This document shows positions 9,812 through 52,319 of a DNA stretch of 55,701 nucleotides, piece after piece (positions within the stretch are counted from its first letter, which is position 1; every line of letters starts with the position of its first letter). The position numbers were made by a program, and so were the translations under genes. This DNA comes from Betaproteobacteria bacterium. GTDB lineage: Bacteria > Pseudomonadota > Gammaproteobacteria > Burkholderiales > Rhodocyclaceae. Under the pieces are notes generated by a model. It was not told the DNA's origin, ran no database searches, and saw nothing but the letters and a program-made list of their open reading frames with translations. Location: positions 1-55,701 of the forward strand of contig JAPTVL010000030.1 in the NCBI GenBank assembly GCA_028065725.1. Reading direction: 5' to 3'.

Positions 9812-9838
9812 AAATGCGGCCAGGAAGTGCGCATTTCG
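9812..9838. promoter_or_regulatory. Palindromic site A upstream of the S26 peptidase-traI operon
   Basis: GAAATGCG (9812-9819) and CGCATTTC (9831-9838) are perfect inverted arms. The full 27-bp stretch matches 52293-52319, upstream of traW, at 23 of 27 positions, including most of the spacer. It ends 37 bp before the S26 peptidase start. Two copies, each ahead of a conjugation operon, suggest an operator for an element-encoded regulator; a role in oriT or as an RNA hairpin is also possible. Confidence 0.55.
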
Positions 9839-9875
9839 AAAACCGGCACCGCTGGCTATCCCATAGAGTCAGGCC

Positions 9876-10358
9876 ATGCGATTCCGATACTCGACATGGC
9901 AAGAAATCCGATTTCCGCTCATCCTCTGGCTGATGGCCGCCTACTTGGCGGTGAGCGGAAGCTACATGCTCGCTTTCAACCTGACGGAAAGCCTGCCGGG
10001 AACGGTATTTGTCATCTGCAAGGACACCTTCCCCGATAGTGGTGAGTTCGTGGCTTTTCGGTGGGAGCGAAACTGGCCGTATCCGAAAGGAAGCATCTTC
10101 GTTAAGCGCCTGGTTGGCCTGCCTGGATCGCGTGTGACGACGCAAGGACGGGATTTCTACGTGGATGGCCGGGCGGTGGGGCAAGCCAAGGAACGGGCAA
10201 GAACTGGCGAACCGCTGATTCCAGGACCCGTGGGGGTGATTCCGGAAGGTAGCTATTACGTCGCGGGCGGGCACCCCGACAGTCTCGATTCCCGCTACCA
10301 ACTGACGGGATGGGTAAAACGCGATCAAGTTATCGGCCGTGCGTTTCGGCTGATATGA
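9876..10358 (+). CDS. S26-family signal-peptidase-like conjugal maturation protease (TraF/TrhF type)
   Basis: A 160-residue protein with one N-terminal membrane segment (PLILWLMAAYLAVSGSYML) and the S26 fold. The catalytic serine is in ESLPGTVF (about residue 48) and the lysine in FVKRLVGLPGS (about residue 84), followed by the S26 box (GGHPDSLDSRY). In R27/SXT-like systems such a protease (TrhF type, related to RP4 TraF) is part of the transfer region and processes pilin. It starts 37 bp after the palindromic site and is followed 64 bp later by traI, suggesting a shared transcript. It is unrelated to the thioredoxin-fold TraF at 1596. Confidence 0.85.
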   Translation: MRFRYSTWQEIRFPLILWLMAAYLAVSGSYMLAFNLTESLPGTVFVICKDTFPDSGEFVAFRWERNWPYPKGSIFVKRLVGLPGSRVTTQGRDFYVDGRAVGQAKERARTGEPLIPGPVGVIPEGSYYVAGGHPDSLDSRYQLTGWVKRDQVIGRAFRLI

Positions 10359-10422
10359 GCGGATTAAAGATGCCGCTCGAATTTTGCGGGTGTGCCGTCA
10401 ACGTCTCCGCCAGGAAACTCGC

Positions 10423-12531
10423 ATGTTGCACTTGCTGAAGAAAGTGATGGGCAAGGGAGAGATTTCTTTGCCGCAGCAAGTAATCGAGATACCGCCCATC
10501 GCCAAATCCTTGCCTGACGATGAAATCCCGCGTTACCCGCCCTTTGTCAAAGGGTTGCCGGCATCCCATCCCGATCGGCTGATCGAAACCCAGCAAGAAC
10601 TGATTGGGCAGATTCGAGAGTCCGGGTTGGCGTCGAAAGATGTCTATGAGGAATTTTATCTGGGGCCCTTGCGCCGCTTTGCCTCCTACGCCCATTTGCT
10701 GCCGGCCAGCGAGACTCACCATCATCGTGGCGCCGGGGGCTTGTTCCGGCATGCCATCGAGGTTGCCTTGTGGTCATTACAGTCCGGGGATAGGGTACTT
10801 CTGCCGGGCGATCAAACTCCGCGACGGCGGCGGGAACTCGAACCGCGTTGGCATTCGGCGGTTTTTCTCGCGGCACTGTGTCATGACCTGGGTAAGCCCA
10901 TCACCGATCTGATGGTGACCAATCAGGATGGAGGGAAAGTCTGGGATCCATTTTGTGAAGATCTCTACGCTTGGGCCGTCCGCAATCAGGTAGACCGCTA
11001 TTTCCTGCGCTGGCGCAAGAACCGCGGAACATCTCACACCTCGGTTTCGCTGCTGCTGGTTGAACGCATCGTCGGTAGAACCGGATTGGGCTGGATATCG
11101 CAGGGCGATCCCAATCTGGTGACCTGGATGATGGAAGCGATCAGTGGCCATCCCAGTCAGGAAAACATGATCCACAACCTGATCGTACGATCTGATCAGG
11201 TCAGCGTGACGCGTGACATCGAGAGCATGGGCGCCAACTTTGCTGGCTACGAAATAGGAATCCCCGTCGAGCGGATTCTTCTCGATATCATGCGTCGGCT
11301 GGTTCGGGACGGGGTCTGGATTGTCAACGAACCGGGATCGAGGCTATGGCACATGGACGGCCATCTCTACCTGGTCTGGCCCGCAGGGGGCGAGGAGATC
11401 GCTGCGATCATCAATCAGGAAAAAATGCCCGGACTGCCCAGGACACCGAACAGCATTCTCGACATGCTGGTCGAGCGCAAACTGGCTGAATTCAAAGTCG
11501 GGCAGCCCGATGGCAACCGCTACTGGTTGATCGCTCCGGCCATCCTTGCGGAAAAAATTCCCAACATACAACTGAAGGCGATACGCCTCAACAACCCGGG
11601 CGCACTGTTGGATTCACTGCCTGCATCGGCAGCTGGAAGGCTGGTTGGTAACGACGATCCGCCCGCCAAGTCGTTGAGCAACGCATCGGTTGTCGCGCCG
11701 ACAAAACCCGCGGAGCCGACCGTCGAAGTGGTTCCAACCGCCGTCGTCACTTCGGCCACACCGGCTGCACCGCTCGCTGATCAACCGCCTGATCAACTGG
11801 ATGGTCCGGTTGGCGAAGCGCTCAAAGCGCTGGTGGAGGATATCGAGCACGGCCGCAGGGACGGCAGCAAGCTCACTCATGTCGATTCGGAAGGAATCCT
11901 GTGTCTGAAGTGGCCTGATGCGTTCAAGGGGTACGGACTGGAGAACAAGACGATCCTCGACGAACTTGGACGAAGAGACTGGTTGGTGGTCGATCCCATG
12001 TCACCATTCAGAAAAGTTGCCGAGCTTCAGGTTGGTATCGGAGCCCCATGGAAGATCCTCCGCATCCAGCCGGTCGCGGCAGCCATGATGGACATCAGTA
12101 AGGCAAAGAATATGTCCAAGGCAGCTTCAAAATCGGTGCGTAAATCAGAATCCAAACCTGTGGCGAAAATCGATGCGACGAATCAGGAAGCGACAGAACC
12201 AATTCTTCCGGTAGCTCATCCTGTCCTACCAATTATTTCCTCGAAGGAGGAGGGATCCGTAGAAAAGATGGTCGCCCGCCAACGTGCGCTGCTTGAGGAT
12301 GTAGTGGGCGTGCTTCGTCAGGCGGTAAATGATGGTACGTTGGCCGCCGATCACGAAAACGGCTATCTGCTGATCAATGTCCGGGATGCCGATGCAGTGC
12401 TGAAGGCCGGCATCAAGGCGTCACGCTCGCAAATTTTTGGCTTGAAGGGCATCGATCCTGATCGATTCACGACAGAGGACAGAAAACCGAAGGTGTACTT
12501 TCGGATTCGAGATCACGATACGCATTGTTAG
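10423..12531 (+). CDS. traI: TraI, MOBH-family relaxase
   Basis: A 702-residue relaxase of the MOBH class, which nicks oriT and leads the strand into the channel. The N-terminal TraI_2 domain shows the metal-binding series LPASETHHHRGAGGLFRH and, further on, the HD motif (ALCHDLGKPITDL). The C-terminal TraI_2_C-type domain is at about residues 620-700, with a Pro/Ala/Val-rich linker in between. I start at ATG 10423, with AGGAA six bases upstream, rather than the in-frame TTG at 10384. The HHH and HD motifs are intact. No oriT could be assigned; the gaps before and after the S26 peptidase-traI pair are the places to look. Confidence 0.9.
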   Translation: MLHLLKKVMGKGEISLPQQVIEIPPIAKSLPDDEIPRYPPFVKGLPASHPDRLIETQQELIGQIRESGLASKDVYEEFYLGPLRRFASYAHLLPASETHHHRGAGGLFRHAIEVALWSLQSGDRVLLPGDQTPRRRRELEPRWHSAVFLAALCHDLGKPITDLMVTNQDGGKVWDPFCEDLYAWAVRNQVDRYFLRWRKNRGTSHTSVSLLLVERIVGRTGLGWISQGDPNLVTWMMEAISGHPSQENMIHNLIVRSDQVSVTRDIESMGANFAGYEIGIPVERILLDIMRRLVRDGVWIVNEPGSRLWHMDGHLYLVWPAGGEEIAAIINQEKMPGLPRTPNSILDMLVERKLAEFKVGQPDGNRYWLIAPAILAEKIPNIQLKAIRLNNPGALLDSLPASAAGRLVGNDDPPAKSLSNASVVAPTKPAEPTVEVVPTAVVTSATPAAPLADQPPDQLDGPVGEALKALVEDIEHGRRDGSKLTHVDSEGILCLKWPDAFKGYGLENKTILDELGRRDWLVVDPMSPFRKVAELQVGIGAPWKILRIQPVAAAMMDISKAKNMSKAASKSVRKSESKPVAKIDATNQEATEPILPVAHPVLPIISSKEEGSVEKMVARQRALLEDVVGVLRQAVNDGTLAADHENGYLLINVRDADAVLKAGIKASRSQIFGLKGIDPDRFTTEDRKPKVYFRIRDHDTHC

Positions 12532-12598: not shown

Positions 12599-13294
12599 TC
12601 AAGCGGCCAAACCGGGAATGACCACAAAATAGGCATTGAGCATGTACAGGCCAGAGAGGATCAGCAGAATTCCGCCGATAACTTCAAAAGCCTTGTGGAA
12701 TATTCTCAGTCCCGACAAGTTTTGCAGCCAGCCCACGGCAATTGCGCCCAACAAGATCGGAATCGCACGTCCCAAGGCGAAAGCCAGCAGCAGCGCTACG
12801 CCGAAAACGGGTGAGCCAATGCCAGCGGCAACACCAAGCAGAACGATCAGCGCTGGCGTGCAAAACGGGCAGATCGCCACCGAGAATGGCACGCCCAGTA
12901 CAAAAGCACCCCACGCTCCTGTTACGGGTTTGGCTCGCAACTTCAATGCCGGTAGTGACAGGCGCAGCCATCCCGGCCAGATTAGGCCCAGCACGATCAG
13001 CAGGGGACCGAGTACCAGGCCCCATGCACGGCCAAGCAGGTGTTGCACCCATCCGCCGCCCAGACTGGCAGCCAGACCCAAAGCCACATGCGTCAGGATC
13101 ATGCCCAGGACAAAGAGACCGCCATAGAGCGTTGCTTGGTGCGAAGTGCGCGATGTCGTCACGTAGGCGAGCGAAACCGGGATCGCCGCTAGCGCGACCG
13201 GGTTGAAGCTGAATACAAAGCCTGTCACAAACCCGACCCACAACGCCCCGAAGCTGGCTTGAGCCACCGCCTGGCGCAGTGCTTCGGCGTCCAT
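12599..13294 (-). CDS. CcdA/DsbD-like cytochrome c biogenesis-type membrane protein
   Basis: A 231-residue protein with six or so hydrophobic segments, and the CcdA hallmarks of a proline in the first segment (SFNPVALAAIPVSLAYV) and a cysteine pair in a later one (VAICPFCTPALIVLLG). CcdA-type proteins pass electrons across the inner membrane to periplasmic thiol proteins. I start at ATG 13294, which shares one base with the stop of the thioredoxin gene (TGATG), indicating coupling. The upstream extension of the frame is overlap with that gene. Together with the MerR regulator and thioredoxin it forms a three-gene metal/thiol operon. Confidence 0.82.
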   Translation of the reverse strand: MDAEALRQAVAQASFGALWVGFVTGFVFSFNPVALAAIPVSLAYVTTSRTSHQATLYGGLFVLGMILTHVALGLAASLGGGWVQHLLGRAWGLVLGPLLIVLGLIWPGWLRLSLPALKLRAKPVTGAWGAFVLGVPFSVAICPFCTPALIVLLGVAAGIGSPVFGVALLLAFALGRAIPILLGAIAVGWLQNLSGLRIFHKAFEVIGGILLILSGLYMLNAYFVVIPGLAA

Positions 13295-13560
13295 CAGAAA
13301 GACCCCAGGCTGGTCAGCATGGTACGGAACTGCTCCGAGGTAGGCAGCGACGAAAACTTCAATTCGCCATTCACAGCAATGGCCGGCATGCTCAATACGC
13401 CGAGCGAGACTGCGTAATCCAATTCTTTGAGCACGTTGACCTCGCGCCAAACTACCTCGTTCTCGCCGAGCACGGCGGTTGCGATGGCGCGGAGCTGCTT
13501 TTGCGCGGCTGCACATTTGCTGCATCCCGGCGCGGCAAAGAGTTCGATCTTGATGCTCAT
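13294..13560 (-). CDS. Small thioredoxin-like redox protein
   Basis: An 88-residue protein with an N-terminal CxxC ([14 protein letters not shown], Cys about 12 and 15) and the cis-Pro motif [11 protein letters not shown], the two landmarks of small thioredoxin/glutaredoxin folds. It has no signal peptide, so it is probably cytoplasmic, where it could feed electrons to the CcdA-like protein encoded next. ATG 13560 overlaps the merR stop as ATGA; the longer in-frame extension lies inside merR. The substrate is unknown. A paralogue-like protein is encoded at 15428-15691. Confidence 0.8.
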
Positions 13561-13973
13561 CGGGCCACCTCGGCGAGACTGTTCTCCAGCGCCGCCAGGA
13601 TGGGACATTCGTCGGTCGCGGCCTCGCCACCAGCGCAGCGCTCGATCAGTTCATCGAGTGCGCACGACATAGCTTGTAGGGCTTGGAGCTTGTGTGCGAT
13701 ACGCAGCTTCTTTTCGATAGCCACGCTGCGCACGTCCTCGCAACAGGCACTATCGGCCTGCTTCAATGTCAGAAGTTCGTGAATGTCCGACAGAGTGAAC
13801 CCGCAGTGCTGTGCGGTTTTGATGAAGCGGATGCGGCGCACGGCGTCATCGTTATATAGGCGGTAGCCCGCATCGGTTTTCGATGCAGGCGTGATCAGAT
13901 GTTCTTTTTCGTAGTAGCGCAGCGTATCGGGACTAACTCCCGACAGCGCGGCTACTTTACCGATAGTGTGCAT
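13557..13973 (-). CDS. MerR-family heavy-metal-responsive regulator
   Basis: A 138-residue MerR-family activator with an N-terminal winged helix ([25 protein letters not shown]), a dimerisation coiled coil, and metal-ligand candidates in ADSACCEDV and in the C-terminal [14 protein letters not shown]. The cysteine pattern is closest to the Zn/Cd/Pb-type branch (ZntR, CadR, PbrR), though the metal cannot be fixed from sequence alone. ATG 13973 has GGAG six bases upstream. The gene is autogenous: a promoter with a MerR-style 20-bp spacer lies directly upstream, and the stop overlaps the thioredoxin start. Confidence 0.85.
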
Positions 13974-13997
13974 GGCGCTCTCCAAGTCATAACTATC

Positions 13998-14029
13998 AGC
14001 ATAAACCTTGGAGTTAACACTAGGGTCAA
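13998..14029 (-). promoter_or_regulatory. MerR-type promoter of the merR-thioredoxin-ccdA operon
   Basis: On the minus strand TTGACC (14029-14024) and TATGCT (14003-13998) are separated by 20 bp, the over-long spacing that MerR-family activators correct. The spacer carries an imperfect dyad (CCTTGGAG to ACTAGGG on the plus strand). The CCTTGGAG half-site recurs in the promoter at 15770-15801. Confidence 0.7.
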
Positions 14030-14053
14030 TCGTTCATCCAAAAGAATTTGAAT

Positions 14054-15305
14054 TCATCCGGCTCTCGTGTGGGTCACGGCGGCTGGATACAGGTTGAGAC
14101 CGCCACAATGGAAATAGACGGCGATCTTGAAGTTGTTCGGATTGCGATAGCCGCAAGCGCGCTTCTGGACCGTAGCGATCTTGGAATTCAATCCTTCCGC
14201 GACAGCATTGGTGACGCGATGGGCAAAGTAGGTCAGCACATTCGGCAAGTGGCGAGCGATCAGCTTGGCGGCGTCGATTATCGGCGGCAGGCGGCTGTGC
14301 GTCGCCCAGAAGTACCAGCGCTTCCAGAATTTCGTTGCCCACGCCACCGAAGTATAGCTCCACAGGTCCCGCAGCGCCTCCTTCAGCGCCCATACCCGGC
14401 CGGTCTTGAGTTCAGCACCCTTCAGTTCATCGAAGCGCTCTTTGGTCTTCTCGGTCATGTTCGCCGGGTTGGTCAGCCACAGGTACTTGCTCTTGGTCAG
14501 GCTGTTGTCGCCGGCCTGCATCAGTCCCTTGTGCTCCCGTTTCCTGACCCTGTCCACCGCATCGAGGACGTGCCGCATGATGTGAAATCGGTCGAAGGCC
14601 ATCTTGCCGTCGGCGCCGGGCACCTTATCGCGGCAGGCATTGATATAGGCCGGCCACATGTCCAGGCTGATCGCTTCGATCTTCTCCAGGCGCTCTTTCG
14701 GAAACGCATCGAAGTAGGCGGCAAGACTGGTTTCCTTACGGTCTTCACCGATGTACTCGACGGTGGATTCTTCAAGGTCGCACACCAAGGTCATGTAGCG
14801 ATGCCCCTTGGCGATCGCCTTCTCGTCAATGCCGATCTGCTTCGGGATATCGTCACTCTTGGCGGCGCGACCACGAAGCACCGCACGTTCCATCAGGTGC
14901 CAAGCTTCGTCCCAGGTAATCCTCAGGATTTCGGCGGCCTTCTTGACGTTCGCCGCCAGCAGAACATCAATGGCCAGCGCCTCGAACAGATTCGTGAAGC
15001 GGCTTCCCGATTGCGCCCACGGCAAGGTCGCTTGATGCACGCCGTGCTCCGGACACGATACGCGCGGCGGTCGCGCATGCAGGTAGGTGAGGAACTGGCA
15101 ACTGTCAAGGTGGCGCCAAACACGTTCAGCGAGATGGTCATAGACCCCAAGCTCACGCCCGCACTCGGGGCACGCAAAGCATTGTCCACTTGGATGTCCA
15201 ACATGAACTTCAACATGCTTCTTCGCTATATCCAATTCGACTTGCTTCACCGTCCAGGGCGCCGTCAGCCCCAAGCAATTGCCGGTACAACTCCACGCTG
15301 TCCAT
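14054..15305 (-). pseudogene. ISL3-family transposase with a frameshift near the start
   Basis: The protein has ISL3 features: a Cys-rich N-terminal zinc finger (CFACPECGRELGVYDH, then VSCPEHG), the DDE core (QIGIDEKAIAKGHRYMT, then AISLDMWPAYINACRDKVP) and the typical C-terminal FHCGGLNLYP. A strong ribosome-binding site (AAGGAGG) precedes ATG 15305, which opens MDSVELYRQLLG, the usual ISL3 beginning, but that frame is lost at a GGGG run (15269-15272). Removing one G rejoins it to LTAPWTVKQVELD. So it carries a one-base insertion, a sequencing error, or a slippage site. The open frame running up to 15424 reads through a hairpin and is not the natural start. Terminal inverted repeats were not resolved. 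Confidence 0.8.
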
Positions 15306-15388
15306 CGCACGTCCTCCTTGCAGACCGTGCGCGAAAGCGTACTACCGACCCATAGAAATGTCTGAAGGACCAGAATTTGATTGAACGG

Positions 15389-15420
15389 TCTTGGCGAGAA
15401 GCCGTAGTTTCTCGCCAAGA
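15389..15420 (-). terminator. Strong 12-bp-arm hairpin after the second thioredoxin gene
   Basis: TCTTGGCGAGAA (15389-15400) and TTCTCGCCAAGA (15409-15420) are perfect inverted arms with an 8-base loop, starting eight bases after the thioredoxin stop. There is no U run, so it may stabilise the RNA end rather than terminate by itself. It shows that this stretch belongs to the thioredoxin gene's 3' end. Confidence 0.6.
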
Positions 15421-15427
15421 GCATGAT

Positions 15428-15691
15428 TTATGCTTGACCGAGGCCAGCGGCACGAAGCGCCTGCTCCTCGACACCTGCACCCGAGCAGCACGATGCCAAC
15501 TGGCCGTTAATGGCGACTGCCGGTACTGAGCGCACACCCAGATCACGAGCACGTTTTGCGACATTGATGTCGTTCATATCGAGGATTGAGACTTCGCATG
15601 AATTGCATGCGAGGCGATTGACGAGCTCGATGGCGGTCTGGCAGGCGGGACAGCCTGCACTAAAAACTTCGACTTTACGTTTGGTAGTCAT
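15428..15691 (-). CDS. Second small thioredoxin/glutaredoxin-like protein
   Basis: An 87-residue protein with CxxC (FSAGCPACQTAIEL, Cys about 14 and 17), the cis-Pro motif SVPAVAINGQ, and additional cysteines (LACNSCEV, ASCCSGAG). It resembles the 88-residue protein at 13294 in length and motifs but has more thiols. It is read toward the merR-thioredoxin-ccdA operon, from which the ISL3 element now separates it. A MerR-type promoter about 80 bp upstream probably drives it. Likely a cytoplasmic thiol carrier in metal or thiol stress; no substrate can be named. Confidence 0.75.
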   Translation of the reverse strand: MTTKRKVEVFSAGCPACQTAIELVNRLACNSCEVSILDMNDINVAKRARDLGVRSVPAVAINGQLASCCSGAGVEEQALRAAGLGQA

Positions 15692-15707
15692 ATCATTTCT
15701 CCAAGAG

Positions 15708-15742
15708 GATTATGTTACGGAAGTGTGAGAGCAGACGACCCC
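15708..15742 (-). repeat. Candidate Tn3-family terminal repeat (outer end at 15742)
   Basis: Read on the minus strand from 15742, the sequence starts GGGGTCGTCT, identical over ten bases to the outer end of the Tn21-type repeat at 20377-20414 and in the same orientation, but it then diverges. It could be the end of a different Tn3-family element lying to the left, or chance. Confidence 0.35.
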
Positions 15743-15769
15743 GCAAGGAACATCGCTCTGCACACCATC

Positions 15770-15801
15770 ACGGTAGCCCTTGGAGCATGCTCCAAAGTCA
15801 A
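15770..15801 (-). promoter_or_regulatory. MerR-type promoter with perfect 16-bp palindrome
   Basis: On the minus strand TTGACT (15801-15796) is followed by the perfect palindrome TTGGAGCATGCTCCAA (15780-15795) and a weak -10 (TACCGT at 15775-15770, 20-bp spacing, or CTACCG with 19). Over-long spacing with a central dyad is the signature of MerR-family promoters. It points at the thioredoxin gene 15691-15428. The half-site CCTTGGAG is shared with the merR promoter at 14006-14013. Confidence 0.65.
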
Positions 15802-15903
15802 GCGCCACTGACTCATTGCTCACCGCGCTGGCTTATTAGTCAGCTCATCGCAATCGAGGGTTTGGTCCTCTGTTGCTGCGGTAAGCGTGGCGCGCACCTG
15901 AAA

Positions 15904-16819
15904 TCACTGATAGCGCTCTAACCCACAGAAGGGTTTGACGTATTCCGCGCCCTCCGGTGTGAAGGCGGCATCGAGCGGGATGTCCTTGCAGCACACGCAG
16001 CAACTGGTGGCGGTCGAGTCACTTGCATTCATGGTGGCACCTCTCCATTGACTGACAAAGGCGGCGAATGCCGCCGCCGGCATTGGCCTGGCGAACAGGA
16101 AGCCTTGTCCTGCGTCGCAGTCCGCTTGTCGCAACAGACCAAGACTCGTCGATGTTTCCACGCCTTCAGCCACCACTTCCATGCCCAGCCCGTGCGCAAG
16201 CTGAATCACGGAGTGCACGATGGTTTGGTCGCGGTGGTCGTTGGCGAGTCCGGCGACAAACGATTGGTCGATCTTGAGCGTGCTGATTGGGCAGCACTTC
16301 AAATGCTGCAGACAGGAATAACCCGTCCCGAAGTCATCGGCGGCGAAGCGCACACCGATCTGTCGCAAGGCTTCCAGGGCGGGGAAGATCGGCCGGATCA
16401 CCGAACGCGACCGATTCGGTCAGCTCGATTTCAAGATACTCGGCGGGCAACTCGGCATCGGCCAGCACGCCCTTTACCCAGCCGTCGAAGTCTGATCCCA
16501 CTTGGCTCGCCGAAACATTGACGGCCAGCCGGAACGGTTGGCATGCCAGCGTCTGCCTGTCGCGCATCTGACGGCAGGCTGCGCCCAGCACCCAAGCACC
16601 GATTTCAGGCAACAGGCCAGACGATTCGGCCACGGGCAGGAACTGGCCCGGCGGCAACAGTCCGAGCATCGGGTGACGCCAGCGCAACAGGGTTTCCGCG
16701 CCGACAATTTGGTCACTACGCAAATCGACAATCGGCTGGTAGTGCAGCTCAAGCTGACCGCGCGCAACCGCCGGCGCCAGTTGCGCCAACGTGCATTCAA
16801 TGGGTTGGGAAGCGCTCAT
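15904..16819 (-). pseudogene. Urf2-like EAL-domain protein of the mer operon, frameshifted
   Basis: From ATG 16819 the frame gives an EAL domain (ETLLRWRHPMLG, then [16 protein letters not shown]) and is lost near 16390. The second half resumes in another frame ([20 protein letters not shown], then [10 protein letters not shown], then [13 protein letters not shown]). Deleting one base at about 16390 restores the Tn21/Tn501-type reading ('FGDPAIFPAL'). The C-terminal Cys-rich tail ([15 protein letters not shown]) ends at a TGA where relatives read YQR, and similar-looking codons continue behind it. So there are two lesions. The start overlaps the merE stop (ATGA). EAL proteins degrade cyclic-di-GMP, but the mer-linked form is dispensable for resistance. 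Confidence 0.85.
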
Positions 16820-17052
16820 GATCGCCCCCTGAAGGCCCGTAGCAGCCGCGTCACAGACAGGACAAACAAACCGGTCAGCGTGAGGGCTGCAATACCCCAA
16901 TACTCCCCGATGAACGCGCCGGCCGTTGTTCCCGCCAGCACAATGGCGAGAATCGGCAAATGACAGGGACAGGTGAGCACGGCCAGTGCGCCCCACAGGT
17001 AGCCGGTGAACGGCTTGTGCGTCTCGGACGGTAAACGCTCGGGGCTGTTCAT
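16816..17052 (-). CDS. merE: MerE, mercury transport protein
   Basis: A 78-residue inner-membrane protein with two hydrophobic segments. The first ends in a CPCHLP motif ([17 protein letters not shown]) and the second follows ([15 protein letters not shown]). MerE is known to take up Hg(II) and methylmercury. The sequence closely matches what I recall of Tn21/Tn501 MerE (opening [14 protein letters not shown]), and the length is exact. ATG 17052 overlaps the merD stop as ATGA, and its own stop overlaps the Urf2 start, so the distal operon is coupled. Confidence 0.95.
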
Positions 17053-17414
17053 GGCAGACTCTCCGCGTGCTGTGCCGGCTCGGTCGGCATGGCGGCCAAC
17101 TGCACTTCCAGGCTGACCAGCGCCTCGCGCCGGCGTTCGACGAGTTGACGCAGCACGGCAAGCTGCGCAGCCGCATCGTCGCCGTCCGCAGCATCCAGCG
17201 CCCGATATAGCCGCGCCAGTGCATCGAGGCCGATACCCGCCTCGAAGGCGGCCCGCACGAAGCACAGGCGTTGCAAGGCGGCGTCATCGAACAGGCTGTA
17301 ACCGCCCGTGGTGCAGGCGACTGGCCGCAGCAATCCGCGCAGCAGGTAGTCGCGCACGATATGCACGCTCACCCCGGCATCAACAGCCAGCCGGGACACC
17401 GTGTAGGCACTCAT
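17049..17414 (-). CDS. merD: MerD, secondary mer operon regulator
   Basis: A 121-residue MerR-like protein with an N-terminal winged helix ([20 protein letters not shown]) and the conserved stretch [21 protein letters not shown]. MerD binds the mer operator and helps turn expression off once mercury is gone, probably by displacing MerR. It matches the Tn21/Tn501 MerD length. The start is ATG 17414, rather than the upstream in-frame codons, because it gives the canonical MSAYTVS beginning. It lies 17 bases after merA. Confidence 0.95.
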
Positions 17415-17431
17415 TGAATGCCTCCTTTTTC

Positions 17432-19129
<1,698 letters not shown>

Positions 19130-19188
19130 TTATCGTTTGTGGCACCAAGCAATGGCGTCAGATGTGCTGCGGTGCCGTTTTCTGTGGT

Positions 19189-42835: not shown

Positions 42836-42849
42836 GTCGGCTATTCCGA

Positions 42850-43281
42850 CTATGCGGGATGCTTGATGCAAATTACCGGAATGCGCGTCAGGTGCAATAA
42901 CTTGCGCGTCACCGATCCGAGCACGATGCCTGAAATTGCGCCTAGACCGCGTGTCCCCATGACGATGTGATCGCAACCGAGTTCATCGGCCAGCGCCGCC
43001 AGGACTTCGGCCGGGTCACCGAGTTTGATGTGGGTCTGGTGGGCGATTTCTTCCTCGTTCAAGGCGTGCAGAATTGGCTTCATGACCATGTGCGCCTCAA
43101 TCGCCTGATGGTCGTTTATTACCTCCTTATCCGTACCGCGGGTTTGCCACTCCAGCGGCTTGGGCTGGACGTTGACCACATGAACTTCGAGGGGACCGTG
43201 CTTTTGAACGAAGTCGATCACGTACAGAGTTGCCTGGAAGGCTGAATCAGATCCGTCTACAGGTAGCAAAACTTTACGCAT
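42850..43281 (-). CDS. Universal stress protein, UspA family
   Basis: A 143-residue single-domain Usp (RKVLLPVDGSDSAFQATLY at the start) with the ATP-binding signature MGTRGLGAISGIVLGSVT near residues 108-125 (G-2x-G-9x-G-S/T). Such proteins bind ATP and support survival in stress; the target is unknown. Its start overlaps the end of the ATPase gene by 8 bases, so it is translated as part of the same transcript. Confidence 0.9.
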   Translation of the reverse strand: MRKVLLPVDGSDSAFQATLYVIDFVQKHGPLEVHVVNVQPKPLEWQTRGTDKEVINDHQAIEAHMVMKPILHALNEEEIAHQTHIKLGDPAEVLAALADELGCDHIVMGTRGLGAISGIVLGSVTRKLLHLTRIPVICIKHPA

Positions 43282-45988: not shown

Positions 45989-45999
45989 GATCGATCCCT

Positions 46000-46329
46000 T
46001 TACGGGGCCGCGGCGTTGCACGCCCGATCAGCCCGACCGATGCCAACCGCCGAGTTCCGACGTGACGGAACCAGAACCGCGCCTTCGACGATGCCCATCG
46101 CTGCGGCACTGGTTTGCAGGAAACGTGTCGCGGTCATGGTCTCGAATGGACCGAAGTACCTCACACCGCGACCGTAATGGATCGTGCCTCCAGGCCCCAG
46201 TGCAAGGTAATGGCCCGGTGCCAACATTCGCCCATCGTCGGTTTCATAGCGACAGGCATGCTGTGCCGAATTCACAAGAAATCCCGGGGTGACGACGCGG
46301 ACGAGTTCAAGTCGTCTATTTTTCCGCAT
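46000..46329 (-). CDS. Hypothetical 109-residue protein in the stress operon
   Basis: No family recognised. The protein is soluble-looking, with no clear signal peptide, and mixed beta-rich character (RLELVRVVTPGFLVNSAQ, then GHYLALGPGGTIHYGRGVRYFGPF). It ends 12 bases before the ATPase start and begins 39 bases after the Tim44-like gene, on the same strand. This spacing suggests co-transcription. A coding start at ATG 46329 is adopted. Confidence 0.55.
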   Translation of the reverse strand: MRKNRRLELVRVVTPGFLVNSAQHACRYETDDGRMLAPGHYLALGPGGTIHYGRGVRYFGPFETMTATRFLQTSAAAMGIVEGAVLVPSRRNSAVGIGRADRACNAAAP

Positions 46330-46367
46330 GATCCTTCTCGCTTATCGATAGGCCAACAGCGTGAACA

Positions 46368-47243
46368 TCAGCTTTGCTGAATGCCGGCGATGGCCCAACC
46401 GCGGCTGCCGTCGAGCGGCTTGGTCAGATGCCAGACTTCGTTGAATGGTTCTGGCGGGGCATTCACCTCTTCACGCAGCTGGCCGGAGAAACGCACACTC
46501 GCCATCGCCTGATTGGCTTGGGTCATAACATCGAGCAACTCGGCGTTCAGTTGCATGACATTCGTTTCCTGCGCAAGTTGATTGCGCTCCTGAAACTGCA
46601 TCTGGATCTCAGCCGCCATCTCGGGAGTACAAAACTCGCGGATATCGTCCATGTCGCCCCGGTCGTTGGCGGCCTGCAAACGGATGAAGTTGAGTCTGGC
46701 CTGACGCAGGAAGCCATCAACATCGAAGTCGGCGGGAACGTTTGCCGCGCCAGCGGACGTGCCACCAATGGATACCGGAATGGACGGTTCGCTGGCGCGT
46801 ACAGTCTCCATGCCAGCGGGCATGCCGGCATACTGCATGGCCGGCTGCGTGCCAGCGGGCTGGCGCTTCCTCAAGAACCAGCGCACGGCCATGACGACGG
46901 CCAGGCCAATCAGCAACAACATCATCATGTTGGCCATGCCTTCACCCATGCCCAAATGCGAGAACAGGGCTGCCAGGCCGATACCGGCCGCCAGTCCAGC
47001 CAGCGGGCCAATCCAGCGGCTCATCCCGGATGCCGGGGCAGCGGCGGCAGGAACTGCGGCTGGGGCCGCCGCTTGCGCGGGCGCATCGGCGGGTTTGGCC
47101 GGCACGGCTTCGCGTTTCATTACCGATGCGTCACGACTGACTCCGGAGGACTTGCCTCCACCTAGCCGCTTGGCCTCGGCATCCGGAACCATCGCGCCGA
47201 CACCCATTACGACGGCAAACAATGCAATTGCAATACGTTTCAT
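46368..47243 (-). CDS. Tim44-like domain protein, membrane-anchored
   Basis: A 291-residue protein: signal peptide (MKRIAIALFAVVMGVGAMV), a long Ala/Pro-rich linker, a pair of hydrophobic segments (WIGPLAGLAAGIGLAALFS, then ANMMMLLLIGLAVVMAV), and a C-terminal Tim44-like domain (about 180-290; pattern FLRQARLNFIRLQAANDRGDMDDIREF). Bacterial Tim44-domain proteins are poorly characterised. ATG 47243 is adopted. The operon context implies a role in stress at the cell envelope. Confidence 0.82.
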   Translation of the reverse strand: MKRIAIALFAVVMGVGAMVPDAEAKRLGGGKSSGVSRDASVMKREAVPAKPADAPAQAAAPAAVPAAAAPASGMSRWIGPLAGLAAGIGLAALFSHLGMGEGMANMMMLLLIGLAVVMAVRWFLRKRQPAGTQPAMQYAGMPAGMETVRASEPSIPVSIGGTSAGAANVPADFDVDGFLRQARLNFIRLQAANDRGDMDDIREFCTPEMAAEIQMQFQERNQLAQETNVMQLNAELLDVMTQANQAMASVRFSGQLREEVNAPPEPFNEVWHLTKPLDGSRGWAIAGIQQS

Positions 47244-47278
47244 GGTAATTCTCCTTTGAAATATCTGTATGAAGGCGG

Positions 47279-47878
47279 TCATTGATCCGCCTTGGGCACT
47301 GGCGTCACGATGCTGACCTTGACGGTGCCCTTGTTGCCACGGGTAATCGCAAATTGAATGCGGTCGTTGCCCTTGATGAATTCGTGCCGCTCTTCGTCTG
47401 CCGATGCAGACAGCAAGTTTTGTGAATAGGCTTGCTTCGCAAAACCGGTAACGTAGGCATCGCGCACGGCGGCGTAATCGACTTTTCCTTCGTAACGCAC
47501 CGTGATTTCTTGTCCCTCGCGCTGCCAGTGCGTACGCACGAGACCGGGATAGCGCGTCACGGTGGCCGGATCGGTACCGGAAACATCCTGCGGCGGCGGT
47601 ACAGGTTTCGTCGCGGCGCGCAGAGCATCGAGCGCCTCATTGGCGCCGGGAATCACGCGCTCTGCCTGCTCGATCACGACGCGGGCTGTTTCGGGCGCCG
47701 CACCCGCCATGGATTTTGCCTGCCCCCACAAGCCGCCGATCAGCGCCACGGCGGCCCATGCGGTGAGTCCGAGGAGACCTATGAAGCCGACGCCAACGGC
47801 TATCCAGGTGGAACGGCGCACTTGCAAAATGCCGGGGGCGAGCGTGGCGGCATACGAGAGCAACGTCAGTCTGCTCAT
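47279..47878 (-). CDS. Hypothetical membrane-anchored protein, 199 residues
   Basis: No family recognised. One membrane segment near residues 25-50 (WIAVGVGFIGLLGLTAWAAVALIGG) is followed by a soluble C-terminal part (TRYPGLVRTHWQREGQEI, then GNDRIQFAITRGNKGTVKVSIV) that could lie in the periplasm. It is on the same strand as its neighbours, 10 bases after the hibernation-factor gene and 35 before the Tim44-like gene. Confidence 0.65.
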   Translation of the reverse strand: MSRLTLLSYAATLAPGILQVRRSTWIAVGVGFIGLLGLTAWAAVALIGGLWGQAKSMAGAAPETARVVIEQAERVIPGANEALDALRAATKPVPPPQDVSGTDPATVTRYPGLVRTHWQREGQEITVRYEGKVDYAAVRDAYVTGFAKQAYSQNLLSASADEERHEFIKGNDRIQFAITRGNKGTVKVSIVTPVPKADQ

Positions 47879-47888
47879 GGGGAGTCCC

Positions 47889-48275
47889 TCAGTCGGTGCC
47901 TAAGGCCATGACCGCATCCCGTTCGGCATTTGCTTCACAGGAGGAGGCAGCATTAAGGTGCGTGTGGGGATACTCCCGCAAGCGCTCCAAGCGACGCGCA
48001 ACGGTGCGCTCGGTCCGGTCGATCGCGCGATCGATGGCAACATAGAGGTCCGCATCGGTATCCTCGATGACCACCGTCCGGACGCGGGGCAAGGAAATTC
48101 TCACCTGGCAGCGCTTGTCGTTGCCGCCGCGGGGTCCGTTGATGTCGGACAGACTCACGCTGACTTTACTCACGTCGTGACGTGCCCAGTCCAGGGCAAA
48201 CTTGAGACGTCGCTCGGCATGCTCGCGCAAGCCCTCCGTCAGATCAAAGCCGTGTGCACGTATGTCAAATTGCAT
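47889..48275 (-). CDS. Ribosome hibernation factor-like protein (HPF/RaiA family)
   Basis: A 128-residue protein with the HPF-type beta-alpha-beta fold (QFDIRAHGFDLTEGLREHAERRL, then SKVSVSLSDINGPRGGNDKRCQ) and basic C-terminal helix (DRAIDRTERTVARRLERL). HPF binds the small ribosomal subunit in stationary phase and stops translation. ATG 48275 has GGAGG seven bases upstream. The frame continues upstream but its codons there are in the regulatory gap. First gene of the eight-gene stress operon. Confidence 0.78.
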   Translation of the reverse strand: MQFDIRAHGFDLTEGLREHAERRLKFALDWARHDVSKVSVSLSDINGPRGGNDKRCQVRISLPRVRTVVIEDTDADLYVAIDRAIDRTERTVARRLERLREYPHTHLNAASSCEANAERDAVMALGTD

Positions 48276-48357
48276 TTGTCTTCCTCCCGAAAAAGTAACC
48301 ATGAGAGAAAGATAGGCTTTTAAATACAAACAATAAAGACGAATCATGTTTATATAC

Positions 48358-48377
48358 TGTTCGTCATTTAACGAACA
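48358..48377. promoter_or_regulatory. Perfect 7-bp-arm dyad between hpf and the LysR gene
   Basis: TGTTCGT (48358-48364) and ACGAACA (48371-48377) form a perfect dyad with a 6-bp AT-rich centre, in the divergent gap and 11 bases before the LysR start. The size and position suit a LysR-type binding site that could control both directions. The surrounding gap is AT-rich. Confidence 0.6.
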
Positions 48378-48387
48378 ATTGCAAACC

Positions 48388-49296
48388 ATGAACCTCAAAC
48401 ATCTGCGCTATTTCTGGACGGTTGCCCGCATGGGGGGCGTGGCGCGCGCGGCCGAGCGTCTCGATCTCACGCCACAGACCATCAGCGGCCAGGTCAAACT
48501 GCTTGAGGAGGATCTCGGCACGTCGCTGTTTCGGCCCGCCGGGCGCGGAATCGAACTGACCGATGCGGGACGGATGGCCTTGTCCTACACCGACGAGATC
48601 CTGCAACTTAGCGATGAAATGAAGACGGCGCTGGCGGCACGACAACGCCAGCCCCTGCCGATCCTGCGTGTCGGCATTACCGATGTGGTGCCCAAATCCT
48701 TCGCCTATCGCCTGCTGGCGCCCGTCGGCAACCTGCCGGAACCGGTGCGATTACTCTGTCGGGAGGGGCACATCGACATGCTGCTGGCGGAACTGGCACT
48801 GCACCGGCTCGACATGGTGGTGTCGGACCGTCCCATGCCGCCCGGTCTGGCGGTACGCGGCCACAACCACAAACTGGGCGAAAGTGCCGTGGCCTTCTTT
48901 GTCGCGTCATCACTCGGGGATACTCGCCATGATTTCCCCGGCTGCCTCGACGATGCGCCACTACTGCTGCCCGGTCAGGGCGCTGCGGTACGCGGCCAGA
49001 TCGATCGCTGGCTCAATGAAGCACGCCTGACGCCCCGCATCATGGGCGAGTTCGACGACGGCGCCCTGATGAAAGCATTCGGCCAGGCCGGTGCCGGATA
49101 TTTTCCCGCACCGGCATTGTTGGCCGACGAAATCTGCGCCCGTCATGAGGTGGCTCTGGTTGGGGAAGTCGACAGTATTCGCGAAACTTTCTGGATGATC
49201 ACCACCGAGCGACGCATCAGTCATCCGGCGATACGCACCGTGGTTGAGGCGGCGCGCACTGCCTTGAACTCCGACGGGGAAACCACGGCGGAATAG
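48388..49296 (+). CDS. nhaR: NhaR-like LysR-family regulator
   Basis: A 302-residue LysR-type regulator with the N-terminal winged helix (MNLKHLRYFWTVARMGGVAR, then LDLTPQTISGQVKLLEEDLG) that is a close match to NhaR, the Na+/osmotic regulator. The C-terminal two-lobe effector domain is complete. The start at ATG 48388 is chosen because it gives the NhaR beginning; upstream codons lie in the operator. It diverges from hpf. No nhaA is in the window, so the stress operon may be its regulon. Confidence 0.86.
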   Translation: MNLKHLRYFWTVARMGGVARAAERLDLTPQTISGQVKLLEEDLGTSLFRPAGRGIELTDAGRMALSYTDEILQLSDEMKTALAARQRQPLPILRVGITDVVPKSFAYRLLAPVGNLPEPVRLLCREGHIDMLLAELALHRLDMVVSDRPMPPGLAVRGHNHKLGESAVAFFVASSLGDTRHDFPGCLDDAPLLLPGQGAAVRGQIDRWLNEARLTPRIMGEFDDGALMKAFGQAGAGYFPAPALLADEICARHEVALVGEVDSIRETFWMITTERRISHPAIRTVVEAARTALNSDGETTAE

Positions 49297-49326
49297 TCGG
49301 TGCTGACAGGACGGCGGTATCTGACC

Positions 49327-50304
49327 TCAGTTTCCGCGAACCAAGTTCATCACTTGGTTCATGTCGAGATTGCGCGCTTTTTGCTCGATCTGCGGCAGAT
49401 ACTGTGTTTGCAATTGTTTGGCCGGACCCAGCAGGCTCTGGAATGCATCCTGCAACATGGCTGTGTTCATGGTTCGCCCACCGGCATAGTAGCGTTTGGC
49501 CACCTGACCGAGCGCGTAGGTCGTGGCGAAGGAAAATGCCATGCCCGTGGCAGCACTGCCGATCTTGCCGAACGTCTTGCCGGCTGCCTTGCCCAGTAAG
49601 CCGCCGAGCAACTTGCGCCCAAACTGCTCCAGATATTGTGACGTCAGTCCCACCCCGGCGGCGGCGATGAACTCCTTGATGTGCCCCTGGTCAAGATCGA
49701 TTCCGTGCGACTGGCCGATGCCATACACCATCTTGATCTGAAGCGGAATGATGGCCATGGAGGCCCACGATTGCGGCAGCAGTTCGAGTGCACCATTCAG
49801 CAGCGCGTAATTGAGAATGGATTTATCGAGCTCTGCTTCGGATGTCACGGGTCTGGCGTTCGCGGCGTTGGACGCTGAATAGGATTGCTCAAGGGGGGCG
49901 CGCATCTTGGGGGCCGAGGTTTCAGCCGCCTCCACGAAAGTATCAATTTCGCCTTCGATCAAATCCGTCTGTGCGACGTCGAGTTTCAACAGGGACTTGA
50001 GGTTATCGAGGAATTTGCGCTCGGTAGCGGTCATGCGTCCATCCGCATCGCAGACACATACTGCCATCTCGTAAGCATAGTGACGCTGCCCGGCTTCGAT
50101 CAATGACGATGTCGCGGTTTCAAGCGGAAGCTGCTTCAATAGAACGTCCTGGTAAAGGCGTGCCATATCGACCGCGCCCGGTGCATCGGTGAGGGATTCA
50201 GCAATCCGCCGGACTTCCTCGCGCTCCCGGTCATCCTTGATCCCGTCGGCGAATGCTGCGTGCAGTGCAATGGCGAGGATCGATCGTTGTTCATCAATGG
50301 TCAT
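49327..50304 (-). CDS. TerB-like / DUF697-like protein
   Basis: A 325-residue protein. The N-terminal ~130 residues resemble a TerB-type acidic helical domain (ALHAAFADGIKDDREREEVRR, then VCDADGRMTATERKFLDNL). The C-terminal ~180 residues are a DUF697 (YcjF)-like membrane region (MAIIPLQIKMVYGIGQSHGI, then KLLGGLLGKAAGKTFG). ATG 50304 has GGAG six bases upstream. It is convergent with the LysR gene. The function is not established; TerB-like domains occur in tellurite-resistance and membrane-stress systems. Confidence 0.72.
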   Translation of the reverse strand: MTIDEQRSILAIALHAAFADGIKDDREREEVRRIAESLTDAPGAVDMARLYQDVLLKQLPLETATSSLIEAGQRHYAYEMAVCVCDADGRMTATERKFLDNLKSLLKLDVAQTDLIEGEIDTFVEAAETSAPKMRAPLEQSYSASNAANARPVTSEAELDKSILNYALLNGALELLPQSWASMAIIPLQIKMVYGIGQSHGIDLDQGHIKEFIAAAGVGLTSQYLEQFGRKLLGGLLGKAAGKTFGKIGSAATGMAFSFATTYALGQVAKRYYAGGRTMNTAMLQDAFQSLLGPAKQLQTQYLPQIEQKARNLDMNQVMNLVRGN

Positions 50305-50533
50305 GGTGGTCTCCATAAATGGTCAGTAATGTTTTATGGTCATCTCTCCGTGCCTTCATCAAGGCAGGCTCGATAACCGTCGAGAGCTAGAAATAATGTC
50401 ATGCTTTCCATCCTTTTTTCTTTTCTACGCGCGATGCAGTTTGCTTCGTGTTTTCGCTGATCCACCGATGAGTCTTCACCCGTCATGAAACCAAGGGAGT
50501 GAGCAGGTCGCGTTCAATCCTGGGAAGACGGGG

Positions 50534-51109
50534 TCAGAGTCCGAGGCTCTCGCCGGCACCAAGCAGGGTTGCAATGCCCAGCACTGCAAAGATTGCGGCG
50601 GCGATTCCGTGTACCAGCCGAATCGGGAGCTTGTGAGCAAGCCGATCGCCAATCAGTACGGCGGGTACATTTGCAATCATCATGCCGAAGGTCGTTCCGG
50701 CAACGACGGAAAAAAATGCGTGATACTGAGCGGCCAATGCGACGGTGGCGACTTGAGTCTTGTCACCCATTTCGGCAAGAAAAAAGGCAACCAGCGTAGT
50801 AACGAAAACACCGGATCGAGTGAGTTTTGCATCGGTCTCATCGAACTTGTCCGGAATCAATGTCCAGATTGCCATGGCGATGAAGGAAATGCCGAGCACC
50901 CAGCGCAGGGTTTCGGGTCCGACAACGGTGGTAATCCAAGCGCCAATCGCACCGGCAAACGCGTGGTTTGCAAGCGTTGCGACCAAGATGCCGAGGATAA
51001 TCGGGAGTGGACGCTTGAACTTTGCGGCAAGGATGAAGGCGAGGAGTTGCGTCTTGTCGCCAATTTCGGCCAGAGCAACGATGCCGGTAGAGATGAGGAA
51101 GGCTTCCAT
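50534..51109 (-). CDS. GDT1/UPF0016-family Mn2+/Ca2+ exporter
   Basis: A 191-residue membrane protein made of two homologous halves, each with the hallmark ExGDKT motif (ALAEIGDKTQLLAF at about residue 15-20 and LAEMGDKTQVATVA at about residue 112-117). Bacterial members (MneA and relatives) export manganese. Six membrane helices fit the family. A yybP-ykoY-type manganese riboswitch precedes it, which independently supports a Mn role. It is the only gene on this transcript that I can see. Confidence 0.93.
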   Translation of the reverse strand: MEAFLISTGIVALAEIGDKTQLLAFILAAKFKRPLPIILGILVATLANHAFAGAIGAWITTVVGPETLRWVLGISFIAMAIWTLIPDKFDETDAKLTRSGVFVTTLVAFFLAEMGDKTQVATVALAAQYHAFFSVVAGTTFGMMIANVPAVLIGDRLAHKLPIRLVHGIAAAIFAVLGIATLLGAGESLGL

Positions 51110-51164
51110 AACAGTTCCTTGGCCGGATCAAGACAGATGACCACATCACCCCTCCAGCCATTCG

Positions 51165-51280
51165 GAAGGCAACGTGGTCAAAGGTCTTGCCAGGTTCGGA
51201 AACTGCTTACGCCATGGCCAGAAGGCCAAGTGTGTTGACGTAAACCCCTTGCGCGGAAGGGCGGCTACTCCCCAATGACG
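51165..51280 (-). ncRNA. yybP-ykoY-type (manganese) riboswitch
   Basis: On the minus strand the aptamer's conserved blocks are present: GGGGAGTAGCC at 51273-51263, GTCAACACACTTGG near 51240-51227, GGCGTAAGC near 51210, and AAGACCTTTGACC at about 51188-51176. This is the class that binds Mn2+ and turns on Mn exporters. It is placed about 60 bp upstream of the GDT1-family gene start. The edges are approximate. Confidence 0.88.
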
Positions 51281-51328
51281 GTGCGAATACTACATGGAAG
51301 CAAAGGTGTCGTCTATCCAGGTAGTAAG

Positions 51329-52234
51329 ATGATCGATATGTTCCGTTGCAATAGCACCCAAACGCATCCTTTAGCACACTCGGGCATGCATGAGGAAGTT
51401 GAAACATACCTGAAGAACGGGTGCCACGATCCGCAGTTCGAAGCTTGGCCGGGTAGCGGTTTTTTCGACCGAACGCAAAACGGAAGCGAGACCCTGCGCG
51501 ACGCGCTGATTGCAGAAGTGCTGGCAAGAACGCAGCGCCCTCCAGTCATTACGCCTCCGGACGATCTGGATCTTCGTCAGTTCGCGCACCAGAAATTCGG
51601 CGGCATGGTGAAGGGGCTTTTCCCCAAGTCTGAACAGGCGATCGTCCTTTCCATGCTTGAACGCTCCGTGGTATTCCTGACGCCACGAAACATCGTCTCG
51701 GTGTTGCGGGATATGCCTTGGCTCGATACGGCATGGGACTTGGCCAACCTCTATCTGGCCAGCCACTCAGCGGAATTGCTGTCGGTTGAGGCTCAACCGA
51801 TCCTTGGATTGAGCATCGAAACGACCTGCTACGTCTCGACCGACTATTTCCGCGCAGCGAATCCCTTCGACGATTTCGTCCTGCACGAAGCCGCTCATGT
51901 TTTTCACAACTGCAAACGTGAGACGCTGGGTCTGCCCCATTCAAGGCATCGGGAATGGCTGCTCGAGATCGAATATCGAAAGCGCGAAACCTTTGCCTAT
52001 GCCTGTGAGGCATACAGCCGCTTGCTCGAACTGGGGCGCGATTCAAAACATCGCCAAGACCTGTTGAACGAATTGGCTGCAACCCCGTTGCCCAACGATG
52101 AACGCGTGGACGGTGCGGAGTATCTCGACATTCTTGCCGAAGCCAATACGGCCAGAAATGGGTGGAAGCGCATCCTCGTGCGATGTTCCCCGTCCAGGGT
52201 TCGCAATCAAACAATTCCGACGCCTACATCGTAG
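51329..52234 (+). CDS. HExxH-containing hypothetical protein next to traW
   Basis: A 301-residue soluble protein with a zinc-protease-type motif (VLHEAAHVFHNCK, about residues 191-203) and downstream acidic residues (RKRETFAYACEAYSRLLE) in the position of a third ligand in gluzincin-like enzymes. I do not recognise a named family. ATG 51329 is adopted; an upstream in-frame ATG at 51275 lies inside the riboswitch region. It is the last gene before the traW block and reads in the same direction. It may be cargo or a transfer accessory. Confidence 0.55.
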   Translation: MIDMFRCNSTQTHPLAHSGMHEEVETYLKNGCHDPQFEAWPGSGFFDRTQNGSETLRDALIAEVLARTQRPPVITPPDDLDLRQFAHQKFGGMVKGLFPKSEQAIVLSMLERSVVFLTPRNIVSVLRDMPWLDTAWDLANLYLASHSAELLSVEAQPILGLSIETTCYVSTDYFRAANPFDDFVLHEAAHVFHNCKRETLGLPHSRHREWLLEIEYRKRETFAYACEAYSRLLELGRDSKHRQDLLNELAATPLPNDERVDGAEYLDILAEANTARNGWKRILVRCSPSRVRNQTIPTPTS

Positions 52235-52292
52235 TTCGTTTCCTCTACGCGCCCCGTTGAGTCGTCAGCGACCGTAGCTGCTACGGGTAGCC

Positions 52293-52319
52293 GAAATGCG
52301 CCCGAAAAGTGCGCATTTC
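52293..52319. promoter_or_regulatory. Palindromic site B upstream of the traW operon
   Basis: GAAATGCGC (52293-52301) and GCGCATTTC (52311-52319) are perfect 9-bp arms around a 9-base spacer. Compared with site A (9812-9838), 23 of 27 positions are identical in register. It ends 40 bases before the traW start. An adjacent smaller hairpin (CCGTAG/CTACGG near 52272-52286) precedes it. Confidence 0.6.

Follow-up and report, generated by a model that had tools for sequence, protein, structure and literature searches.

A 27-bp palindrome ahead of two conjugation units as the putative operator of an FlhDC-like activator in betaproteobacterial elements

Why should two conjugation units that lie far apart on one contig be preceded by nearly the same palindrome? 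The question arises from contig JAPTVL010000030.1 of a Rhodocyclaceae-type betaproteobacterium (GenBank assembly GCA_028065725.1), of which positions 1 to 55,701, the whole stretch analyzed, are called the window here. A first-pass annotation had noticed a shared 27-bp site shortly before the first gene of an S26 signal peptidase-traI unit and of a traW unit, and had suggested either an operator through which an element regulator turns on the two units jointly or a component of nicking or of the origin of transfer (oriT). We infer, with a probability of roughly 0.85, that this palindrome (the box) is the operator of an FlhD/FlhC-like master activator, AcaCD/SetCD-type and encoded by the element itself, in a family of betaproteobacterial elements. 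The box occurs in multiple copies per element, heads transfer, mobilization, partition, and replication units, and usually lies 26 bp upstream of a −10-like hexamer.

The arm pattern GAAATGCG-N(5-17)-CGCATTTC has exactly two matches in the window, at 9811-9837 and 52293-52319, and none in 100 dinucleotide shuffles of the window. The positions reported earlier were 9812-9838 and 52293-52319; the second stands, and the first begins one base too late. Box 1 (9811..9837, plus strand; GAAATGCGGCCAGGAAGTGCGCATTTC) is a 27-bp palindromic predicted activator site that reads GAAATGCG-GCCAGGAAGTG-CGCATTTC, and the S26 promoter of relatives has a box too. Box 2 (52293..52319, plus strand; GAAATGCGCCCGAAAAGTGCGCATTTC) reads GAAATGCG-CCCGAAAAGTG-CGCATTTC and is identical at the traW promoter of the related element E460 and in locus L021. 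Direct comparison of the two boxes reproduced the 23 of 27 identical positions claimed at first. There is no third copy in the window, where the next-best places have 8 mismatches to the joint consensus of both sites. The boxes do lie shortly before their units, with the S26 ATG (9876) 38 bp past box 1 and the traW ATG (52360) 40 bp past box 2. Exactly 26 bp past box 1 stands the −10-like hexamer TAGAGT (9864..9869, plus strand), from which transcription is predicted to begin without a leader, on the S26 ATG or beside it; exactly 26 bp past box 2 stands CAGAAT (52346..52351, plus strand), where the predicted start, again leaderless, coincides with the traW ATG.

Searching genome contigs with the arm pattern returned at least 118 loci, and most of those listed have unrelated spacers; 13 of the listed loci, from 11 genomes, were carried forward. 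Window tra proteins were found at 10 of the listed loci (L008, L011, L012, L021, L036, L039, L061, L069, L090, and L097), and the palindrome lies directly before traW or S26 in all 10 of these tra-bearing loci among the matches listed, some of which are near duplicates. Nine of the 11 genomes behind the 13 loci have at least two matches to the arms (at most 1 mismatch), and G006 and G011 have one each; some extra matches in G002, G005, and G008 have an interior unlike the consensus. The joint consensus is GAAATGYGNCC-N5-GGNCRCATTTC. Allowing at most one mismatch to it, a scan of 369 genomes of the class found G001, already known to carry the box, and one further genome, which had a single match; a reversed control pattern also matched one of these 369 genomes. 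Among 121 genomes of the family of G003, six matched: G003, G007, and G011 were already known, and G402, G446, and G460 were added. Locus L011 is a 6.7-kb contig filed under Planctomycetaceae, perhaps misplaced.

G460 and G446 have their sites on contigs of 3.66 and 3.80 Mb, respectively; a looser pattern placed every match of G460 (6) within ~65 kb and every match of G446 (7) within ~95 kb, all in the element region. E460 closely resembles the window (identities of 100% for the TraC end, 99% for TraU, 97% for TraG, and 91% for TraI). At a box score of at least 19, the three best-covered relatives have nine (E460), nine (E446), and seven (E001) boxes. In relatives, boxes head a PrtN-like helix-turn-helix (HTH) gene, traW, S26-traI, repA, the divergent mobI/parM pair, and the divergent ssb/acaB pair, as well as a lytic transglycosylase gene leading to traE/traB, a gene for an AlpA-type excisionase-like protein, and a few others. 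No separate box was seen at traF/H/G.

The first-pass annotation had proposed looking for more copies ahead of other tra genes, especially traL/traK/traB, and for conservation of the motif in related elements. Such copies are present in relatives, the one at the transglycosylase-traE/traB operon answering to the traL/traK/traB request, and the box is kept in E001, E446, and E402, where flanking DNA has diverged. At the traW promoter, the box is 81 to 93% identical between the window and these three elements, versus 27 to 33% for the 60 bp upstream and 31 to 35% for the 26-bp spacer between box and −10. Compared with the close relatives E003 and E460, identities are 93 to 100% (box), 60 to 75% (upstream 60 bp), and 88% (spacer), the spacer there being nearly as conserved as the box.

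An IMG/VR scan with the exact consensus gave no matches, and two distant-mode searches of PLSDB found no close relative among named plasmids, the best match being pSTJ2, ~70% identical in DNA along 21% of the traW query. The first 50 kb of the Acidovorax plasmid pACP3.3 (MOBF, F-type) contain no box. A de novo motif search of E446 returned the box as its top motif (8 of its 13 listed sites); the same kind of search returned a motif resembling a ribosome-binding site instead of a box in pSTJ2 and nothing convincing in the examined parts of Delftia and Simplicispira plasmids.

A sharp regularity concerns the distance from box to −10. Of 25 sources scanned, some of them near duplicates, 24 had boxes; 55 boxes were chosen by box score alone (at least 19), and their 109 full-length flanks, counting both sides of each box, were thinned by similarity to 82. 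TANNNT starts exactly 26 bp past the box in 29 of these 82 non-redundant flanks, versus a mean of 0.35 and a maximum of 2 across the 74 remaining offsets. When a box is counted if either of its sides qualifies, position +26 carries TANNNT at 36 of the 55 boxes, YANNNT at 47, and YANNN[TG] at 51 (the background for the last pattern is 0.042 per place); YANNN[TG] is found on both sides of 14 boxes. No −35 hexamer is conserved, and beside the box only single positions are kept (offsets 0, 1, and 5). Placing the start of the −10 at −12 puts the box at ~−65 to −39. Judged from these flanks, the geometry is of the class II activator type, in which the site lies directly upstream of a poor −35.

Some of the transcripts from these promoters may also lack a leader. 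An ATG occurs 5 to 8 nt past the hexamer in 20 of the 44 flanks with YANNN[TG] at +26, versus 2 of the 38 flanks without it. Fourteen of the 20 ATGs open full-length genes (4 S26, 7 traW, and 3 lytic transglycosylase), none of which is preceded by a Shine-Dalgarno-like sequence by the pattern used; the remaining six open short or wrong frames. Leaderless mRNAs are thus predicted at the 14 full-length genes, including both window units. A predicted leaderless frame of 29 amino acids also lies between the box and repA (E446 71069, E001 31267, and L151 2026); these frames share their length and not their sequence and are perhaps leader peptides, perhaps chance.

Which protein would bind the box? 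Pfam FlhC matched 6 of the 11 genomes, with divergent short proteins in G001, G006, G007, G008, and G009 and strong flagellar-type proteins in G003 and G007. On contigs of G001, G006, and G007, an flhD-like gene is followed by an flhC-like gene, divergent from a CI/S24 repressor gene; E460 and E446 combine boxes with an flhD-like/flhC-like operon divergent from a SetR/CI-like repressor, and in both the end of flhC-like lies 1.4 kb from the mobI/parM box. The FlhC-like protein matches its Pfam family at 6.5e-12 and the PDB FlhC structures 8j56 and 2avu at 2.3e-7 and 0.0029, the FlhD-like protein matches FlhD at 2.1e-4 (below the cut-off), and the repressor carries HTH_3 and S24 domains. In a protein search, the FlhC-like protein had 44 relatives with E below 1e-10, by which measure it is not a one-off, and a relative 60 to 100% identical is present in 6 of the 14 box-bearing genomes.

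The repressor gene lies at 468-1115 (minus strand) in L165 and at 57150-57776 in E460 (joined from L196-L201), with counterparts in E446, G006, and G007. Its S24 domain aligns with UmuD. Serine and lysine are the catalytic residues of the S24 domain, and in all five orthologues they are replaced by alanine (GEAM for GDSM) and arginine; therefore, SOS cleavage of the repressor is probably not to be expected. In the flhD-CI intergenic region of E460 (57062-57150), a half-box-like GTGCGCATTTTA lies between the divergent activator and repressor genes.

The nearest described counterpart is the AcaCD system of IncA/IncC plasmids. Aligned with the eight AcaCD sites of Table 1 in PMC4207636, which are predicted matches to a motif derived from chromatin immunoprecipitation (ChIP), the present motif fits clearly best in a single register (p = 0.002 by column permutation). 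The two share a core, (G)NCC-N5-GGN(C); the AcaCD inverted repeat has the core GCCC-N5-GGGC, and the flanks differ. The first-pass annotation knew of no described regulator with such a site, which is right only in part: the core resembles the AcaCD box (PMC4207636, Table 1). Scanning the IncA plasmid pRA1 for AcaCD sites, in the parts other than 50-60 kb (that part was searched for proteins only), gave 18 matches, several of which are one core matched on each strand. The TANNNT peak lies there at +24 past the 28-mer (7 of 18), 1 bp from the present position once the cores are aligned. In both systems the box lies just upstream of the −35 region. On pRA1, these boxes precede the MOBH relaxase, dsbC-traC, traN, traF, and parM. 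Passages of PMC4207636 and PMC4605294 describe AcaCD promoters as class II, and an excerpt of PMC11493245 places acaB under AcaCD control. The elements described here differ from the AcaCD plasmids in their SetR/CI-kind repressor, as opposed to Acr1/Acr2, and in their hosts, which are mostly Rhodocyclaceae-type Betaproteobacteria.

The second counterpart is SetCD/SetR of the SXT/R391 integrative and conjugative elements, which share an FlhD/FlhC-like activator, control of tra genes, and a class II position (passages of PMC4344509 and PMC4542580), the SetCD boxes being placed immediately upstream of −35 in those of PMC4344509. A divergent HTH_3 plus S24 repressor is also common to both (215 amino acids in G001, as in SetR), with the difference that the S24 serine and lysine are substituted here. 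An AcaB homologue is present here as a further difference. The SetCD motif, compared here by description, is reported in the passages available to differ drastically from that of AcaCD.

Plasmid pSTJ2 of Sulfuricystis multivorans (NZ_AP018720) provides a third comparison. It has a similar tra set, FlhC-family and AcaB-family proteins, MobI, and boxes with a −10 at +26; it differs in its box consensus, GAAATAGTGCATCTCYGTGCGCTTTTC, in an FlhC-like protein that is 41% identical, and in having flhD-like and flhC-like apart. The box of pSTJ2 came to light only through a comparison of homologous promoters. TANNNT stands at +26 in all six of its best sites, four of which are seeds chosen by that promoter comparison and two of which are independent (before ORF 19888 and before the flhD-like gene); the next two matches lack TANNNT. 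FlhC-like and AcaB-like genes are present in both pSTJ2 and pRA1, and no CI-like or PrtN-like homologue was found in either (E up to 0.01); the box is therefore provisionally assigned to the FlhDC-like complex. The pSTJ2 site before the flhD-like gene (L158 46592) has TACTGT at +26, which may indicate positive autoregulation. Other genes separate flhD-like from flhC-like on this plasmid, one of them annotated as a RAMP-type CRISPR protein.

We propose that an FlhDC-like complex would bind the 11-bp half-sites GAAATGYGNCC and, once bound, would stand in for the absent −35 contact, as in class II activation. S26-traI and traW-traU-trbC would then be switched on jointly with the remaining regulon, and in relatives the divergent SetR/CI-like repressor would probably keep the activator operon silent. 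This agrees with the operator half of the first-pass suggestion, which the further tra-operon copies and the conservation of the box support.

Several observations weigh against this proposal. The activator genes are absent from the 55.7-kb window, which covers only a part of the element. On the right side, the two window boxes read GT against GG in the consensus. No close FlhC-like protein was found in 8 of the 14 box-bearing genomes (G002, G003, G004, G005, G009, G010, G011, and G402), several of which may be incomplete assemblies or carry islands or remnants. At four of the 55 boxes, neither side has a −10 at +26; these include both AlpA-adjacent boxes of E460 and E446. A pSTJ2 traW site spotted by eye was not among the matches of the final scan. 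The likeness to AcaCD also has limits: the present palindrome is longer, its outer GAAAT/ATTTC arms are not in the published AcaCD sites, and the FlhC-like protein is alignable with AcaC over only 45 amino acids (31%). Finally, AcaB co-occurs with the geometry equally well.

That last point leads to the rival we take most seriously, namely, that the AcaB homologue, rather than the FlhDC-like complex, recognizes the palindrome and activates the promoters. AcaB homologues occur in the examined elements that share the geometry (E460, E446, pSTJ2, and pRA1), and acaB itself has a box. We nevertheless regard this as unlikely: passages of PMC4207636 and PMC4605294 report IncA/C footprint and ChIP-exo data that assign the GCCC-N5-GGGC class II box to AcaCD, and the present box resembles it in core and spacing. 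It is slightly less probable still that the palindrome is a repressor operator through which the CI/SetR-like protein, or a small PrtN/AlpA-like HTH protein, silences the transfer genes directly. Palindromes are typical of repressor dimers and the small HTH gene has its own box, but activation is favored by the location ahead of the −35 region and by the absent −35, and pSTJ2 and pRA1 share the geometry with no detectable homologue of either protein.

The other half of the first-pass suggestion, a nick site or other part of oriT bound in the relaxosome, did not survive. One box does lie in the mobI/parM intergenic region, and a passage of PMC4542580 locates the oriT of IncC relatives upstream of mobI, but up to nine copies are present per element, nearly all tied to a promoter-like −10 and most at the fixed distance, and boxes also precede ssb/acaB and repA. 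This multicopy occurrence argues against oriT, a single cis site per element, and we give that reading hardly any weight. We place chance likeness, or an RNA hairpin or terminator, equally near to zero. The arms could pair as a single strand, but transcription is predicted to start past the box, which its own promoter would therefore not transcribe; the earlier claim that the likeness is not chance agrees with the empty shuffles and with the recurrence of the box across elements. The multicopy, fixed-spacing pattern rules out chance and a hairpin or terminator.

A box precedes the AlpA-type gene in E460, E446, and an island of G009, with TGTAAT, TGAAAT, and TTCAAT as the hexamers at +26 on the AlpA side. 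The integrase-AlpA unit of G009 has two boxes (L154 12883 and 17333; G009:C1 ~2.643-2.649 Mb), and the AlpA-adjacent one has its −10 at +26 on the side away from AlpA (TACGCT; TTCAAT on the AlpA side). A set of 33 queries for tra, regulator, and backbone proteins matched nothing in the 35 kb around this unit, and G009 has no close FlhC-like protein, with a distant FlhC-like protein on another contig. Table 1 of PMC4207636 lists predicted AcaCD boxes for xis and rep of SGI1; use of the box by helper-dependent islands would be a further likeness to AcaCD. By analogy, the G009 island, a candidate helper-dependent mobilizable element, may use a helper's activator. Related island fragments were seen in G010 and G011 (L157 and L092), that of G010 with a box before a TrfA-type initiator.

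Attachment sites were sought in E460 and E446, and no exact repeat of at least 16 bp was found between the compared end stretches; six loci scanned for tRNA had none. In E446 the AlpA-type gene lies beside an integrase-like frame, and the integrase of the E460 region belongs to Pfam Phage_integrase. SXT/R391 elements integrate into prfC by means of the SXT integrase.

No literature was found that joins AcaCD, SetCD, or FlhDC with betaproteobacterial terms, and a looser search had neither AcaCD nor SetCD named among the matches listed. FlhDC-like master activators of mobile elements are well characterized for IncA/C plasmids and SXT/R391. A 2015 review (PMC4542580) lists, in the passages available, FlhCD-like activators of mobile elements for Enterobacteriaceae and Vibrionaceae and expects further activators with unrelated boxes, the definition of which would reveal new mobilizable islands. 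The kind of switch is familiar; for this lineage, no described box was found. As far as sequence comparison goes, what appears new is the box definition, the predicted leaderless operon starts, a repressor that apparently cannot be cleaved, and a box-bearing island that lacks tra genes. A bolder picture, which we hold tentatively and find somewhat doubtful as a whole, is a distinct betaproteobacterial lineage of conjugation control, in which an FlhDC-like activator and a 27-bp box would fire two divergent promoters, pilus and relaxase mRNAs would be leaderless, a SetR-like repressor without SOS cleavage would answer another signal, and tra-less islands would parasitize the box beside their excisionase gene. 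For this element family, the box can serve as a tag in searches and provides a set of promoters that can be tested at the bench; its sequence changes while the promoter geometry stays fixed, and it points to one candidate helper-dependent island.

All genes of the two window units are on the plus strand. The first unit consists of the S26 signal peptidase gene (TraF/TrhF-like; 9876..10358; Pfam PF10502, 3.1e-20) and, second, traI, encoding a MOBH-type relaxase with a TraI_2 domain (10384..12531; PF07514, 4.7e-80). The second comprises traW (52360..52983; 207 amino acids from the ATG at 52360, with a TraW_N domain just below its cut-off), traU (52889..53980; PF06834, 2.1e-118), and trbC (53895..54689; PF09673, 1e-29); a longer GTG start of traW at 52309 falls within box 2. 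An open reading frame without a Pfam family (51275..52234, plus strand) is retained between traI and traW in several relatives.

Between traI and this frame lies cargo (12599..51274, no strand assigned) that is outside the switch. It encodes, among others, a mercuric-reductase-like protein, a copper-type P-ATPase, CusABC-like efflux, the anaerobic nucleotide reductase NrdD, a radical-SAM protein, a second cation ATPase, a LysR regulator, and an ISL3 transposase. The 42-kb distance between the boxes, as first reported, is true of the window, where it exists because genes, partly heavy-metal genes, are inserted between traI and traW, and it varies among relatives. traI and traW are adjacent in E001, which has no such cargo, and in L039, L069, and L097; they are separated by ~8 kb in E460 and ~22 kb in E446, and in E003 ~1.3 kb lies from traI to the next conserved frame. 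Since the gap differs in size among relatives and holds cargo in the window, the traI-traW junction looks like a cargo site at which traW retains its own promoter; the box of traW would hold its unit under control despite the separation.

Other window genes include the TraC end, TraF, TraH, TraG, and a hipBA pair behind traG (6844-8460). In L090, hipBA immediately precedes the S26 box, and the annotation of pRA1 also has an HTH-hipA pair.

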